Positions 58 through 5,632 of a stretch of DNA of 64,000 nt are shown piece by piece. The stretch is from Saprospiraceae bacterium (GTDB taxonomy: Bacteria > Bacteroidota > Bacteroidia > Chitinophagales > Saprospiraceae): NCBI GenBank assembly GCA_027488135.1, contig JAIYCH010000056.1:1-64000 (forward strand), given 5' to 3'. How positions within the stretch are numbered: the stretch's first letter is position 1; each line of letters begins with the position of its first letter. Made by a program: the position numbers and the translations under genes. The notes below the pieces were generated by a model, which had not been told where the DNA came from, ran no database searches, and worked only from the letters and a program-made list of their open reading frames with translations.

Positions 58-744
58 ATGGATGTTTTAATTATTGAGGACGATTTACTTTTTGCCACCC
101 GATTGGAGGCAATTATATCTGATACTGCCCACCTTTTTGTTGGGCATTGTAATTCAGCAGCAGAGGTGCCACATTGGTTAACCAATAATTATTGTGACGT
201 TGCGCTCATCGATATTCACCTGGGTAAAGGTTTAAATGGCATCGAAATTTCAAAATATTTCAAAAAATTAAACATTCCAGTTATATTTATTACCGCTTTT
301 CCAAGTGATGAAATTTATAATGAATCTCTTCATAACGATGAAAGTTATTTTTTAGTAAAACCTTTTGATAAGTTCACCCTGAGTAGTGTATTAGATAAAA
401 TTGACAGAAACAGAGTAAGTCCAACTTTTATCTTAAAAGATAATAATCAATTGATTAAAATGGAATGGATTCATTTATTATATATAGAGGTTGATGGTAA
501 TTATTGTGTGTATCATTTTAATAATAAAAGAATTGCCATTAAAAACTCACTGATTAAAATAATAAATGAATATAAAACGACTAGTCCCTTAATTCAAATA
601 CATAGAAACTTTGCTGTTAATAAACACAAGATTAGTAAAGTTAATACAAAGGAATCCTGGCTTGAATTAGATGAGATAAAGATTCCAATTGGTGCTAAAT
701 ATTTAAATGAGGTAGCGTTCCAATACAAATTTTTATCAAAATGA
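58..744 (+). CDS. LytTR-family response regulator transcription factor
   Basis: A 228-residue two-domain response regulator. Residues 1-110 form a receiver domain with the acidic pair D8/D9, the phospho-acceptor D52 in ALIDIHLG, a T at the ITAF motif and the K of VKPF. Residues 120-228 form a LytTR DNA-binding domain, with FILKDNN, IEVDGNYC and the IQIHRNFAVN segment typical of this family. Such proteins bind pairs of 9-bp direct repeats about 21 bp apart; pairs with this geometry lie downstream at 3874-3903 and 4192-4221. The stop codon overlaps the start of the histidine kinase gene (ATGA), so the two are translationally coupled and almost certainly cognate. The first ATG was chosen because it places the beta-1 strand of the receiver at the N-terminus. 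Confidence 0.93.
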   Translation: MDVLIIEDDLLFATRLEAIISDTAHLFVGHCNSAAEVPHWLTNNYCDVALIDIHLGKGLNGIEISKYFKKLNIPVIFITAFPSDEIYNESLHNDESYFLVKPFDKFTLSSVLDKIDRNRVSPTFILKDNNQLIKMEWIHLLYIEVDGNYCVYHFNNKRIAIKNSLIKIINEYKTTSPLIQIHRNFAVNKHKISKVNTKESWLELDEIKIPIGAKYLNEVAFQYKFLSK

Positions 745-3700
745 ATAAATTTTTATTTTCCTTCTTTCTAAGTATTGTCTCTTTTTTTTCCTCCTTTGCA
801 CAAAATAATAACTCTAAACATCTGTATTCTACTCAATTTATAAAAGATGAAATATCTCTTCGTCTTAATAATATGGTAGATTTTGAATTTGATGAATACG
901 GCAGAGCCTGGATTTTATTGACAAATAGTCTTGTTTTATATGATGGAAATAAATATGAATCTATTCCATATTCACAACTAGGTATTCCAGATTATTCATT
1001 TAAAAAAATCTATAAAAATTCAACAGGGGGTTTATATTTAGTTGGATATAGGAATTTCAGCTTTCAGCAAGGTTTAAAGATAAATTTAAATGTTATTATC
1101 CTTAATCCGTTGCTGAGAACCTGGGCTCCGATAAAAGGTGAGTTGTTAAATAATGATAATTTAATTAATTTTTATGGTTTTGAGAATCATACCGCACTAA
1201 TAAACAAAAAAGGTTTTTTTTATATTAAAAATAAAGATAAATGGATTCAAAAATTTAAGATACCTAATGCTGCAATAACCACTATTTTTCCTGCAAATAA
1301 AGGTGAATGGCATGCTTATTCTGAAGATACTTATTTTAATTTAGGTGAAAATGGAAATATTATCGATTCAGCAAGAATTAAGGCATCGAAAATCAGGGAT
1401 TTCATTGAATTCAAAGGACAAAATGAAAAATGTTTTTTACAACTTGAAAATGATTCTATTAGACTTTTAGATAAAGACTATAAGTTTAAAAATAAATTAT
1501 CTTTTCCAAATAAAACTATTAATCTGAATAAGGTAAATCATCTTTTTATCGATAAAAACTTAAGGATATGGATGAAATATCAAAATAGTGTTTCAGTTTA
1601 TAATGAAAGGGGAGAGATTTTTCAAGACTTTCCTGAAATTAAAAGTCAAAATATATTTTGGCGAGGTCGGTTTCCTATAAAAGAAGATGTTTTAGGAAAG
1701 GTTTGGATTCATTTAGGATTTGGATTTTTTTATAATTCATTGATTGATAATGATATAAAATTTTATTTTAAGAATGAAGGGTATAGTTTTAGAGGCTTGC
1801 AACAAATCAATGACTCCATTATTTATTTTAATTCCTATAAGGGAAATGGATTACTGAACCTTAATACGGGTTTAAACACCTATTTTTCATCTAAAAATAA
1901 TTATTTTCTAGGTGCTTTTCTTAACGAAAAAAAACACCGCATTTATATTGGAACAAATAATTCAAAATATGAAATTTTTAACCTTGATAACTTTCAAGTT
2001 TATGAAAGGACCTACATTGATAAGATTTTTTATCATTTTGTTTATTTAGAAAAGGGATTGAACAATAAATATTTTTGGTTGGGTGATTTTGGCTTTCAAT
2101 CTTTTGATATGGATAATGATACTTTAGGAACTTTTTTTCCTTTACCTCCCGGGCATTCATCCATTTCATCGTTTTTAGATATGGGTTCCTTTTATTTGGT
2201 TGGAACTGATAGAGGATTGCTAAAGTATTCATTAAAAAATAAAGGATGGATGAATTTGGCGGTTATTCCTAAAGTAAGAGTTACAGGCATTAAATCTTTT
2301 AAAAACAGGTTTTTAATTTCAACAGCTGCGAATGGCTTATTCGTTTTAAACAATAAATTCGAGATGTTGGGGGATATTCGAAATAGATTAGAGCCTATTA
2401 ATAAGGTTATTTTCTCCATGCTAATAGGTTCCGATGAAATGATTTGGCTTGGTACCGAAAAAGGGCTTTATAAAGTTAATCCTTTGAATTGGAAATATAA
2501 TATGTATGCTATTTCTGACGGTATTTTTGAAGAGGAATTTAACTGGCTTTCCATGCTAAATTTAAAAAATGGGGAGATCCTGATGGGAACCATTAATGGT
2601 CTGGTCAAATTTAATCCTCGGAAAATGACTGATTCTTTCAATGATTTTGAAAAGGGAAATTTTTATTTTTCATCCATAGAAATAAATAATAATAGCAATA
2701 CCAGGAATAGGAATGGACTGTTTGAATATTTAAGTAAAGGTAAAATAACCTTAAATCCTAATGAATATAGCTTGACCCTTTATCCAGGTTTTTCAAATAA
2801 TTACATGGGGAAATCATTACTTTTCTTTATAAAAACGCCCTATTTGGATGATTGGCAAGTAGTTGAAAATTTTAATTCGATTACCTTAAGCCCTACCGCT
2901 GGTAAATCGAATATTCAAATTAGAATATCCCAGGATTCACCTGAGCATTTTTTAAAAGAAATTAATATTCCCATTTATAAGCTTCAACATATTTTAGAAA
3001 ATAAAACCTTTTTGTGGTTTGCATCCATCTTATTTTTGCTTTTGATTGGTATTATATTCTTTTTAAGATACAGATTACTTACAGGCAAAAATAGAGCACT
3101 TGAGAAAGATCTCGCAATAAGAGTAAAAGATTTAGAATTAAATGAACAGAATTTAATCGATAAGAACAATAAATTAGCCATTTTAAATGAAGAAAGAAGG
3201 CGCTTTTTTGATATTCTGGGTCATGAAGTGAATACTCCTCTTGCTGGTATGAAGCAACTAAGCCATACGTTTAATTACTTGTTAAAGAAAGGGGAATATG
3301 AGAAGTCATTGAAAATTGCTCAATCTTTGGAACATAGTGGTACGGAAATCTCTCACCTGGTTGATAATTTACTTACGTGGTCTAATCTTGAAAAAAAGAC
3401 ACAATTCTCTAAAAATATTACTTTCAATATCTTAGATTCCTTTAAGGCTACCTCTAATTTATTTATGTTTCAGATAGACAGAAAAAATATTCAGTATAGC
3501 TTATCGGTGGATGAAGAATTTGATGGGGAAATTGAAAGTGATCCCAATATTATTGGATTTATTTTTAGAAATATTTTGAGTAATGCCATAAAGTATTGTC
3601 CTGAAAATGGGGAAATAAATTGTTCTATTGACAAAGATAATGATTCATTAATATTAAGGGTTTTCAATACTTCTGATGTTATTTCTAAGGATGATTTTTT

Positions 3701-3872
3701 ATTAGATATCGGTGTTGCTCCTAAAATTAGCATACCTGGTACCCTTCAGGAAAAGGGTTTAGGTATTGGGTTGTTTATGATTTTTCAACTCATACATAAA
3801 ATAAAGGGTAAAATTGAATTTAAGATTCATGAGGAAGGGGGTTTTACTGCATTTATTTCCTTGAAAATTTAA
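741..3872 (+). CDS. Propeller-type sensor histidine kinase
   Basis: A 1043-residue sensor kinase. Residues 1-21 are a signal peptide ending in SFAQ. A periplasmic region of about 700 residues follows, with degenerate beta-propeller repeats (for example W-LGTEKGLYK near residue 570) like those of Bacteroidota two-component regulator propellers. A membrane segment lies at about 756-778, then a charged coiled coil, then a HisKA domain with the phospho-acceptor H828 in GHEVNTPL, the N-box NILSNAIKY near 942 and the G2 box GLGIGL near 1005. It is not a hybrid: the receiver is the separate upstream gene, with ATGA overlap. A HisKA kinase paired with a LytTR regulator is less usual than the LytS-type pairing. 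The ligand is unknown. The last 41 codons are duplicated downstream as a remnant at 4066-4191. Confidence 0.92.
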   Translation: MNKFLFSFFLSIVSFFSSFAQNNNSKHLYSTQFIKDEISLRLNNMVDFEFDEYGRAWILLTNSLVLYDGNKYESIPYSQLGIPDYSFKKIYKNSTGGLYLVGYRNFSFQQGLKINLNVIILNPLLRTWAPIKGELLNNDNLINFYGFENHTALINKKGFFYIKNKDKWIQKFKIPNAAITTIFPANKGEWHAYSEDTYFNLGENGNIIDSARIKASKIRDFIEFKGQNEKCFLQLENDSIRLLDKDYKFKNKLSFPNKTINLNKVNHLFIDKNLRIWMKYQNSVSVYNERGEIFQDFPEIKSQNIFWRGRFPIKEDVLGKVWIHLGFGFFYNSLIDNDIKFYFKNEGYSFRGLQQINDSIIYFNSYKGNGLLNLNTGLNTYFSSKNNYFLGAFLNEKKHRIYIGTNNSKYEIFNLDNFQVYERTYIDKIFYHFVYLEKGLNNKYFWLGDFGFQSFDMDNDTLGTFFPLPPGHSSISSFLDMGSFYLVGTDRGLLKYSLKNKGWMNLAVIPKVRVTGIKSFKNRFLISTAANGLFVLNNKFEMLGDIRNRLEPINKVIFSMLIGSDEMIWLGTEKGLYKVNPLNWKYNMYAISDGIFEEEFNWLSMLNLKNGEILMGTINGLVKFNPRKMTDSFNDFEKGNFYFSSIEINNNSNTRNRNGLFEYLSKGKITLNPNEYSLTLYPGFSNNYMGKSLLFFIKTPYLDDWQVVENFNSITLSPTAGKSNIQIRISQDSPEHFLKEINIPIYKLQHILENKTFLWFASILFLLLIGIIFFLRYRLLTGKNRALEKDLAIRVKDLELNEQNLIDKNNKLAILNEERRRFFDILGHEVNTPLAGMKQLSHTFNYLLKKGEYEKSLKIAQSLEHSGTEISHLVDNLLTWSNLEKKTQFSKNITFNILDSFKATSNLFMFQIDRKNIQYSLSVDEEFDGEIESDPNIIGFIFRNILSNAIKYCPENGEINCSIDKDNDSLILRVFNTSDVISKDDFLLDIGVAPKISIPGTLQEKGLGIGLFMIFQLIHKIKGKIEFKIHEEGGFTAFISLKI

Positions 3873-3873
3873 C

Positions 3874-3903
3874 TTTATCACCCAAAAGAATGCTTTTATC
3901 ACC
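3874..3903. promoter_or_regulatory. Direct-repeat pair, candidate LytTR regulator site 1
   Basis: Two perfect copies of TTTATCACC at 3874-3882 and 3895-3903, start to start 21 bp (9 bp repeat, 12 bp spacer). That is the geometry known for LytTR-domain regulators. The pair starts two bases after the histidine kinase stop codon. It is retained in the second tandem copy at 4192-4221 although flanking sequence has drifted. Binding by the regulator encoded at 58-744 is inference. Confidence 0.5.
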
Positions 3904-3953
3904 TTATGAATCGTCTTAGGATAATTAAAATGGAAGATTATATCAGTTTGCGT

Positions 3954-3961
3954 TATATTTG
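3954..3961 (+). promoter_or_regulatory. Candidate -7 promoter element TATATTTG
   Basis: An exact match to the Bacteroidota -7 consensus TAnnTTTG, 51 bp after the direct repeats. No good -33 element sits 19-20 bp upstream, which would fit an activator-dependent promoter. The predicted transcription start is about 3967, ahead of the conserved 16-mer and hairpin. Confidence 0.4.
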
Positions 3962-3966
3962 AAATT

Positions 3967-4042
3967 AATAATAATAATTGAATTATAACTGGGAGTAATA
4001 TTTCATGTTCTGTTTGCATTTTGCATTCAGGACATTTTTTTT
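3967..4042 (+). ncRNA. Candidate small RNA 1 (or attenuated leader)
   Basis: A predicted transcript from the -7 element at 3954-3961 to the T-run ending at 4042. It holds an unpaired 16-mer AACTGGGAGTAATATT (3987-4002), identical in copy 2 at 4305-4320. This is followed by a hairpin with arms at 4005-4012 and 4028-4035, a 15-nt loop and seven T. The two copies differ in the hairpin arms by changes that keep pairing through G-U wobbles. No open reading frame of note lies within it. It could be a stand-alone small RNA or a relic of the leader of a lost gene. The assignment is inference from internal duplication only. Confidence 0.35.
4005..4042 (+). terminator. Intrinsic terminator, copy 1
   Basis: An 8-bp stem (ATGTTCTG with CAGGACAT, one G-U pair) is followed directly by a T-run. 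It also terminates read-through from the histidine kinase gene. Confidence 0.6.
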
Positions 4043-4065
4043 ATGTTTTTTTTGCGTATATTTTT

Positions 4066-4191
4066 CTGACAGAAAAGGTTTTAAGAATTGGTCTTTTTAT
4101 AATTTTTAAATACAGCTATAAAAAGGGTGAAATTGAATTTAAAATTCATGAGGAGGTTGGAGTTTTAGCAATTATCACCTTTAAAATTTAA
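4066..4191 (+). pseudogene. Remnant of a duplicated histidine kinase C-terminus
   Basis: Read in frame from 4066, this gives 41 codons ending in TAA at 4189-4191. The product aligns with the last 42 residues of the upstream kinase from its codon 1002: LTEKVLRIGLFIIF against LQEKGLGIGLFMIF, and KIHEEVGVLAIITFKI against KIHEEGGFTAFISLKI, with one 3-nt deletion. There is no start codon and no preceding kinase body, so it cannot make a kinase. It is the first part of a tandem duplication of about 320 bp (3744-4062 copied to 4066-4385). The absence of internal stops suggests either a recent loss of the rest or chance. Confidence 0.7.
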
Positions 4192-4221
4192 TTTATCACC
4201 CATTTAATGACTTTTATCACC
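4192..4221. promoter_or_regulatory. Direct-repeat pair, candidate LytTR regulator site 2
   Basis: TTTATCACC at 4192-4200 and 4213-4221, with the same 21-bp phase as site 1. A third, imperfect copy (ATTATCACC) at 4171-4179 is in phase, another 21 bp upstream, inside the kinase-tail remnant. The distance from the second repeat to the conserved 16-mer is 84 bp in both copies. Confidence 0.5.
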
Positions 4222-4297
4222 TAAGTATGTTAATGATGACCTACGATGGCGGATAACTACTTAAATTTACAACAATATAATTACTAAACTTGAAATA

Positions 4298-4361
4298 AAA
4301 ATTTAACTGGGAGTAATATTCAATGTCCTGCTTGTACTTTACTGGCAGGGCATTTTTTTTT
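4298..4361 (+). ncRNA. Candidate small RNA 2 (or leader of the permease gene)
   Basis: The second copy of the unit at 3967-4042. A weaker -7-like element (TAAACTTG, 4285-4292) would start a transcript near 4298. The 16-mer at 4305-4320 is identical to copy 1. The hairpin arms are 4322-4331 and 4345-4354 (10 bp, one wobble), followed by nine T. The permease start codon lies 45 bp beyond the T-run. The element could therefore be a stand-alone small RNA, or a terminator in the leader of that gene which must be bypassed. Sequence alone cannot decide. Confidence 0.35.
4322..4361 (+). terminator. Intrinsic terminator, copy 2
   Basis: A 10-bp stem (AATGTCCTGC with GCAGGGCATT), a 13-nt loop and a T-run to 4361. 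Confidence 0.6.
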
Positions 4362-4405
4362 GTCTGTATTCCTGCCTATATTGTCGGATTATACAATCAA
4401 TCAGA

Positions 4406-5632
4406 ATGAGGTGGGAGTTTAAATTAGCCATGCGTATTTCAAACGGTAAGGAAAAGTCGTTTGCCAGTATTATTATTCGTATCGCCTCGCTTGCCGTGGC
4501 TTTGAGTATTGCCGTAATGATTGTCACTACGGCGCTTATAACTGGGTTTAAGACGGAAATAAGCAGTAAAATATTTGGCTTTTGGGGACATTTACACATC
4601 AACGCTGCCAATGTATATCAAAATTTATTGGAAATAGACCCCATTGAGGATAATCAGGATTTTTATCCTGTGCTTAAAAACAGGCAAGGTATTAAGGCGG
4701 TTCAGGTGTATGCTATACAACCAGGTATCGTTAAAGGTAAAAATGACTTAGATGGTATTTTTTTAAAGGGCATCGGTTCTGATTTTAATTGGCAGTTTTT
4801 TAAAACGTACCTTCAAGAAGGAGATATTATTACTTTCCCAACAGAGGAGGCATCTAACCAAATTATCATTTCTAAACAAACAGCCAGCAGACTTTCATTA
4901 AAAACAGGGGATAACTTTAGGTTGTTTTTTGTGAAAAATGGTACCATGCTGAAAAGGAATTTTAAAATTTCTGGTATTTATAAAACAGGCCTTGAAGAAT
5001 ACGATAGTAAATTTGCTTTAGTCGATATAAGAAAAGTGCAACAATTACAAGGTTGGGCGGAGAATCAAATTGGTGGTTATGAAGTGTTTATTGATGATAT
5101 CAGCATGATTGATCATTGGGCGGAAGAGATTTATAGTAATGTCTTACCACCTGATTTAAATGTGCAGTCCATACGGGACAAACTTCCTGAAATCTTTGAA
5201 TGGCTATCTTTACAAGATATTAATGAGGTGGTCATTTTATCCCTTATGATTGTTGTCGCTATTATTAATATGGTAACAGCTCTTTTGATTTTGATGCTGG
5301 AGAGGACTAGAATGATAGGGATTTTAAAAAGTTTGGGTAGCTCTAATTGGAGTATTCGCAGAATCTTTATGTTTTATGCAGGTATTATTGCAAGTAAAGG
5401 TATGTTTTGGGGGAATATTATTGGGATTAGCATTTGTTTACTTCAAAAATATGGGCACTTCATAAAGCTTTCCGAAGAGAATTATTATTTAAACGAGGCC
5501 CCCATTCTTATAAATTTTACTCATATCTTATTCCTTAACCTGGGAACTATTTTGGTTATCGTCTTATTCCTTATTCTTCCAACCTGGTTGATTACCCGCA
5601 TTTCTCCTGTTAGAACCTTAAGGATGGATTAA
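4406..5632 (+). CDS. ABC transporter permease, FtsX/LolE-like
   Basis: A 408-residue inner-membrane permease of the FtsX/MacB/LolCE superfamily. One membrane helix lies near residues 20-45 (SLAVALSIAVMIVTTALITGF). A periplasmic MacB-type domain of about 220 residues follows, then three helices in the last 140 residues, with the conserved ALLILMLERTRMIGILKSLG segment that contacts the ATPase, and SPVRTLRMD at the C-terminus. Members extract lipoproteins or drive cell-wall or efflux processes with a partner ATPase. No ATPase gene is adjacent, so the partner must be elsewhere. The gene lies just downstream of the duplicated regulatory elements at 4192-4361 and may be a target of the two-component system at 58-3872 (inference). 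Confidence 0.87.
   Translation: MRWEFKLAMRISNGKEKSFASIIIRIASLAVALSIAVMIVTTALITGFKTEISSKIFGFWGHLHINAANVYQNLLEIDPIEDNQDFYPVLKNRQGIKAVQVYAIQPGIVKGKNDLDGIFLKGIGSDFNWQFFKTYLQEGDIITFPTEEASNQIIISKQTASRLSLKTGDNFRLFFVKNGTMLKRNFKISGIYKTGLEEYDSKFALVDIRKVQQLQGWAENQIGGYEVFIDDISMIDHWAEEIYSNVLPPDLNVQSIRDKLPEIFEWLSLQDINEVVILSLMIVVAIINMVTALLILMLERTRMIGILKSLGSSNWSIRRIFMFYAGIIASKGMFWGNIIGISICLLQKYGHFIKLSEENYYLNEAPILINFTHILFLNLGTILVIVLFLILPTWLITRISPVRTLRMD

Follow-up and report, generated by a model that had tools for sequence, protein, structure and literature searches.

What are the two similar units that follow one another behind a LytTR two-component system in this Saprospiraceae bacterium, and does that system control them? 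The window, that is, the whole 64,000-nt stretch of contig JAIYCH010000056.1 analysed here, encodes on its plus strand a response regulator with a receiver and a LytTR DNA-binding domain (58–744; Pfam Response_reg 1.1e-14, LytTR 1.4e-11) and its partner, a propeller-type hybrid sensor histidine kinase of the HisKA-HATPase type (741–3872; HATPase_c 9.4e-8), whose HisKA and Reg_prop scores fell slightly under the Pfam cut-offs. The original prediction of a ~320-bp unit occurring twice in tandem was borne out, with a spacing of 318–319 bp and blocks of 73, 67, and 40 nt at 75–79% identity; repeat D1 at 4122–4194 is 79% identical to 3803–3875. Likewise present were the identical TTTATCACC-N12-TTTATCACC direct repeat pairs (3874–3903 and 4192–4221, plus strand) and the identical 16-mer at 3987–4002 and 4305–4320. 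The unit is not purely regulatory, as had been supposed: its first part belongs to the 3′ end of the kinase gene, of which it takes in the last ~70–110 bp. Indeed, the plus-strand ORF between the two sRNA copies (4021–4191) closes with a second, decayed version of the kinase C-terminus (..KKGEIEFKIHEE..). Only the window's own genome carries this duplication; relatives have a single locus, hereafter class A, and the sequence 3′ of copy 2, the copy retaining the ancestral downstream sequence, is the same as that 3′ of the relatives' locus. The class A duplication is therefore recent and specific to this genome.

Both 16-mers lead into a hairpin and a T8 or T9 run. The core of copy 1 (3987–4042, plus strand) consists of a seed (3987–3999), a terminator hairpin (4005–4035), and a T-run (4035–4042), and that of copy 2 (4305–4361, plus strand) of the corresponding elements at 4305–4317, 4322–4354, and 4353–4361. 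Folding z-scores of these terminators were −4.25 and −3.81, and none of 200 shuffles folded equally well. The hairpin arms had been expected to differ only by pairing-compatible changes, which is mostly so, but copy 1 breaks 3 of the 14 pairs of copy 2. Upstream, copy 1 has the predicted exact TAnnTTTG element, the Bacteroidota −7 element (PMC7366714), as TATATTTG at 3954–3961, from which we infer a promoter with a transcription start site (TSS) at ~3968. A −7-like box in copy 2, TAAATTTA at 4262–4269, aligns with TACATTTG of two related genomes (G001 and G003) and places the inferred TSS at ~4276; both boxes lie on the plus strand. A LytTR promoter calls for a pair of 9-bp direct repeats on its upstream side whose starts are separated by 21 bp. 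Class A has this arrangement upstream of its inferred promoter, with the repeat pair centred at about −70 to −79 relative to the inferred TSS.

Class A loci keep the order LytTR regulator, propeller kinase, sRNA, and FtsX gene. The kinase gene and the FtsX/MacB-type permease gene (4406–5632, plus strand, in the window; Pfam FtsX, MacB_PCD), which looks as if it has its own promoter 3′ of the terminator, flank the sRNA in all seven genomes of the genus. A regulator orthologue lies 5′ of the sRNA in G001, G002, G004, and G006; in G003 and G005 the contig or the retrieved stretch stops before the position of the regulator. The G004 kinase (L079, G004:C219:949-2055) aligns over its first ~370 residues only, with the C-terminus still similar, and may be either a shorter kinase or an assembly fault. 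An alignment of the eight class A sequences revealed conservation of both repeats (those of copy 1 are kept across the seven genomes), the box, TGGGAGTAATAT, and the hairpin, with a spacer that varies in sequence and length. The repeats read TTTATCACC / TTT[A/G]TCACC or TTTGGTCACC, 95.5% of hairpin cells were paired as against 40–52% in slid controls, and three pairs are compensatory, with both sides changed. In the G002 locus (L073, G002:C54, ~66990-67003) the seed lacks AAC (TTTTGGGAGTAAT), with repeats and hairpin kept. Apart from the pairs described here, the window's own genome has the repeat pair, at up to one mismatch, just once more (C137), and the LytTR regulon may therefore be very small. 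On the strength of the repeats and the conserved regulator–kinase–RNA synteny, we consider LytTR control of the class A sRNAs quite probable, in the absence of binding or transcription data. This support does not extend to the other locus classes described below: these carry other elements, and the regulator would thus drive one branch of a family.

AACTGGGAGTAAT followed directly by a terminator hairpin and a T-run defines a family (family 1) of at least five locus classes that extends throughout a genus of Saprospirales. We counted 33 members in the seven genomes (8 in class A, 9 in B, 3 in C, 7 in D, and 6 in E), taking as members the distinct contexts with a terminator and leaving out five other 13-mer contexts without one. 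A terminator thus starts within 8 nt in 33 of 38 13-mer contexts, and such a terminator follows only 71 of 14,982 random positions (0.5%) in DNA of the same genus. In the window's own genome, the 16-mer (up to one mismatch) and a terminator co-occur at six places (twice each on C2 and C38, and once each on C118 and C144). The 16-mer is present in all seven genus genomes, where its reversed control gave no match (it gave one in another genome), and 142 other genomes yielded two isolated matches, both without a terminator. A sequence model built from 12 members returned 27 matches at E ≤ 2e-8, all within the genus, the next ones having E ≥ 0.0046; five strong matches lack the exact 16-mer and occupy the same syntenic positions, and a class found later carries [A/T]ACTGGGAGTAATTAT. 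A scan of 84,980 named species genomes with WTWTAACTGGGAGTAATWTT retrieved 21 stretches, 13 of them from metagenome-assembled genomes (MAGs) matching the genus genomes and labelled Saprospiraceae, Haliscomenobacteraceae, Haliscomenobacter hydrossis or Bacteroidetes; some record names can be read as pointing to a freshwater habitat. Every site in these 13 stretches has a terminator, and none in the other eight does. The matches outside the genus (L027, L028, and these eight) were accordingly taken as chance.

Between classes, the hairpin sequences differ and the unpaired seed is constant. RNAalifold found no consensus structure over all classes together, and model R1 was kept sequence-only because the hairpins are unrelated between classes. 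No Rfam covariance model, those of FopS, Yfr1, and Yfr2 included, reached its gathering score in the window or the related loci except for one tRNA; a weak match to ctRNA_pGA1 (E = 0.015; score 24.1 bits, cut-off 45) was rejected. Nor did we find a report of the family in the open-access literature. Related loci in one genome (six in the window's own, 33 in the genus) with an intrinsic terminator at the 3′ side are two of the features expected of sibling, or multicopy, sRNAs, and the predicted sibling RNAs with a shared seed are strongly supported by 33 members from seven genomes in five unrelated classes, with promoter-like boxes at near class-fixed distances and conservation confined to the LytTR repeats, box, seed, and hairpin. 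The genomes are all MAGs of one genus, so members within one class are not independent, and transcript data are lacking. We are nevertheless highly confident that an RNA-type family with terminators exists; as far as sequence can establish them, the family, its terminators, its conservation, and its synteny are in place. The paired elements are two copies from a real, previously undescribed family of sibling sRNAs, whose transcription is inferred.

Searching for complements of the family 1 seed located a second family, in which a terminator directly follows ATTACTCCAAGTT / TAATTACTCCAAGTTAGA; six of the seven genomes carry this element at two loci unrelated to each other. The family comprises 12 loci; the distinct contexts number 11, each of which satisfies the terminator test. 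It is restricted to the genus bar one match with one mismatch in another genus. Locus ii lies between an AraC-type and an XRE/ScfRs-like regulator, in the leader of the XRE/ScfRs-like gene; locus iii stands alone near a DUF2461 gene, with TATATTTG 39 nt upstream. Alignments of locus ii and of class B of family 1 were left out for mixed strands or frames. Between the second-family seed AUUACUCCAAGUU and family 1, 15 of 16 positions pair, a value reached with class D/E variants, with one fixed G-A mismatch. The median duplex energy over all pairs is −16.6 kcal/mol; within the window's own genome, locus iii reaches −15.3 to −17.6 kcal/mol and locus ii a weak −11.7 to −13.3 kcal/mol. In its complementarity, read from the DNA alone, the pair of families conforms to an anti-sRNA arrangement, namely a counter-RNA with a stretch complementary to an sRNA seed. 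We tentatively take the second family as a decoy or counter-regulator of family 1, pairing in the cell being inferred. A possibility that deserves comparable weight is that its members are independent siblings and that the near-complementarity is fortuitous or stems from a shared partner. The fixed mismatch speaks for independence, as does the route of discovery: because a search for complements is what turned the family up, selection applies to it. Chance, however, would supply about 12 control-level matches per genome, which at a terminator frequency of 0.5% amounts to ~0.06 expected loci per genome, against two non-homologous loci with the same 13-mer in six genomes; moreover, only 1 of 5000 dinucleotide shuffles paired equally well (not corrected for the search), and the 15-position pairing counts the same way. 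Other complements were noted. Directly 3′ of the stop codon of an azurin-like gene at L143 and L177 (G003:C104 and G004:C241) lies ATTACTCCCAGTA, which is perfectly complementary to the class E seed; with a terminator-like hairpin further downstream, it is possibly a 3′ UTR decoy. The exact complement ATTACTCCCAGTT precedes, in one genome only, a gene whose N-terminus resembles glycoside hydrolase family 9 (L178, G001:C2:78565-78577), and GTTACTCCCAGTTATTTT occurs in three genomes (L150, L170, and L188) in partly different surroundings.

Target prediction for the 16-mer, proposed at the outset and made here by pattern only, gave one leading candidate. This best mRNA site, ATTACTTCCAGTT, follows a TATATTCG box at a distance of ~6 nt; 63 nt downstream of the site lies the ATG that opens a gene for a 600-aa TPR protein with a LuxR-type HTH (GerE 9e-4, under the Pfam cut-off). 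The site is found in six genomes, with duplexes of −19 to −23 kcal/mol that rank in the top 0.02–0.04% of random windows; in one genome the site is altered at one base and an adjacent bulge is lost, which keeps the pairing strength. G000:C21 (AACTGGAAGTAATACT), at first a candidate divergent family member, was treated as a target, the other strand being the 5′ end of this TPR-LuxR mRNA behind TATATTCG. Genome-wide, complementary sites showed no excess over reversed controls, and a scan for wobble-pattern targets revealed no enrichment, which suggests either few mRNA targets or a pairing rule that we did not model and leaves mRNA pairing a candidate mechanism. On balance we lean towards the seed acting by base pairing. 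Hfq was detected in none of the seven genomes, and each of them has one strong match to an RRM protein (with a further partial match in two), which in the window's own genome ends in a Gly/Arg-rich tail. In Bacteroides, the FopS sRNAs have an RRM protein as binding partner (PMC11697453), which makes the RRM protein of these genomes a natural partner candidate. The presence of this protein without Hfq would also suit a seed that is a protein-binding site, as would the unpaired 13-mer, which hardly varies across almost the whole family. The RNAs would then resemble CsrB/RsmZ in titrating a protein that binds RNA, for example the RRM protein, instead of pairing with RNA. We judge this unlikely, since a second conserved sRNA-like family bears the near-complement, and CsrB titrators are unlike a design with one motif per RNA.

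The surroundings of the classes bear on whether the RNAs are free transcripts. The upstream elements differ from class to class, and classes A, B, and C, three of the five, adjoin regulator or regulator-like genes. The TAnnTTTG-like box precedes the seed by 35–38 nt in class A (25 in copy 1), mostly 38–45 in B, 50–52 in C, 48–49 in D, and ~34 in E, a distance that is near-constant in classes A–D and less regular in E, without TSS data. Class B loci hold one to three copies and are flanked by an AraC-family regulator (HTH_18 5.9e-17), which is divergent, and a PAP2 gene, which is convergent; upstream of every copy is a TGTCC..GGACA inverted repeat (L003 and homologues), likely the operator (TGTCC-N..-GGACA) of the adjacent regulator. 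Class C lies 3′ of a gene for a propeller-type protein without Pfam match, to which we read a regulator role, and 5′ of an SRPBCC-like gene; repeated TTCCGAAAAA motifs occur upstream. Class D sits between an ABC-F gene and a xylose-isomerase-like gene in all seven genomes, with an inverted repeat TTGATATATATATATCAA upstream, and class E is 5′ of a von Willebrand A gene and divergent from another gene. In G002, class E is represented twice, in both cases close to a contig end, and the sequence upstream differs between the two (L155, G002:C37; L163, G002:C177). The original prediction had also allowed for two attenuated leaders, and attenuators or terminators in mRNA leaders or 3′ UTRs, ending the upstream operon or gating the downstream gene without a free sRNA, would accord with classes A, C, and D between co-directional genes and with second-family locus ii inside the XRE/ScfRs-like leader. 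As a general reading this finds no support and strikes us as quite improbable: a leader attenuator must precede a co-directional gene, as classes A, C, D, and E do, but class B has none on either side, is neither leader nor 3′ UTR, and any transcript of it must therefore be free; the genes flanking class E are divergent, and the hairpins vary between classes around a constant unpaired seed. That the units are small peptide genes, the class A hairpin ATG opening an ORF of ~28 codons behind GGGAG as ribosome-binding site, can be set aside almost entirely, for although copy 2 and the relatives have an open frame from this ATG towards the FtsX gene, classes B–E lack an ATG at the corresponding place, variable class A positions alter amino acids yet keep hairpin pairs, and Bacteroidota seldom depend on Shine-Dalgarno sites.

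We thus return to free sibling sRNAs, and our best explanation, which we hold to be probable, is that the two units are class A members of a multi-locus family working as follows. Each sRNA, inferred to be ~75–100 nt long, would consist of an AT-rich leader, the unpaired 13-nt seed AACUGGGAGUAAU, and an intrinsic terminator, and the upstream elements proper to each class would let different signals feed one common seed. In class A, the LytTR regulator, activated by the propeller kinase, is presumed to bind the 9-12-9 repeats and switch the sRNA on. The seed may then base-pair with RNAs bearing AUUACUYCCAGUU-like sites, the best candidate being the extreme 5′ end of the TPR-LuxR-type regulator mRNA, and the second sRNA-like family would, probably, pair with family 1 as decoy or counter-regulator. 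LytTR binding and the direction of regulation are inferred throughout.

Parts of this scheme have precedents. The scattered siblings SisA-D of Caulobacter crescentus share a short common core behind unrelated promoters, and CrfA, an RNA distinct from them, pairs through a complementary stretch with every sibling, much as we propose for our second family (PMC12559287); SisA-D/CrfA, however, have other sequences, belong to another phylum, and depend on Hfq, which was not detected here, and unlike CrfA the counter-RNA is here a two-locus family. Yfr1/Yfr10 and Yfr2 form an arrangement that works alike (PMC6778093) but are cyanobacterial, with other structures, and had no Rfam match here. FopS/GibS of Bacteroides, in the same phylum, are a multicopy sRNA family with a single-stranded seed (PMC11697453); their members share extended similarity and promoters and have the seed in the 5′ region, whereas our classes share only the 13-mer and the architecture, and FopS is stated to be in Rfam, with no match to the families here. 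As inferred for class A, a two-component regulator on two direct repeats activates a regulatory RNA in RgaR-SpoZ and VirR-VR-RNA (PMC10602386) and in AgrA-RNAIII, where the AgrA site is centred near −60 (PMC4227749). These Firmicutes RNAs are not branches of a shared-seed family, unlike the class A RNA, which belongs to such a family, its further branches carrying different elements. The CiaR csRNAs of Streptococcus are also siblings under a two-component response regulator (PMC4507080, PMC4211561), but obey one common regulator, whereas here the upstream elements differ per class.

Bacteroides aside, only a handful of small RNA families are known from the Bacteroidota, and the present one shows that an sRNA family overlooked by structure-based RNA libraries can be defined by a 13-nt seed and a terminator that is free to change. 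It also bears on the open question of how bacteria without Hfq handle base-pairing RNAs. We tentatively envisage that this Hfq-less genus runs a two-sided network in which at least five signal-specific loci, one of them LytTR-controlled, would stand against two counter-RNA loci, the ratio of the opposing families setting the output at the 5′ ends of regulator mRNAs. Such a network would be a compact case in which to test how opposing RNAs integrate signals, its targets and partner proteins being already named.
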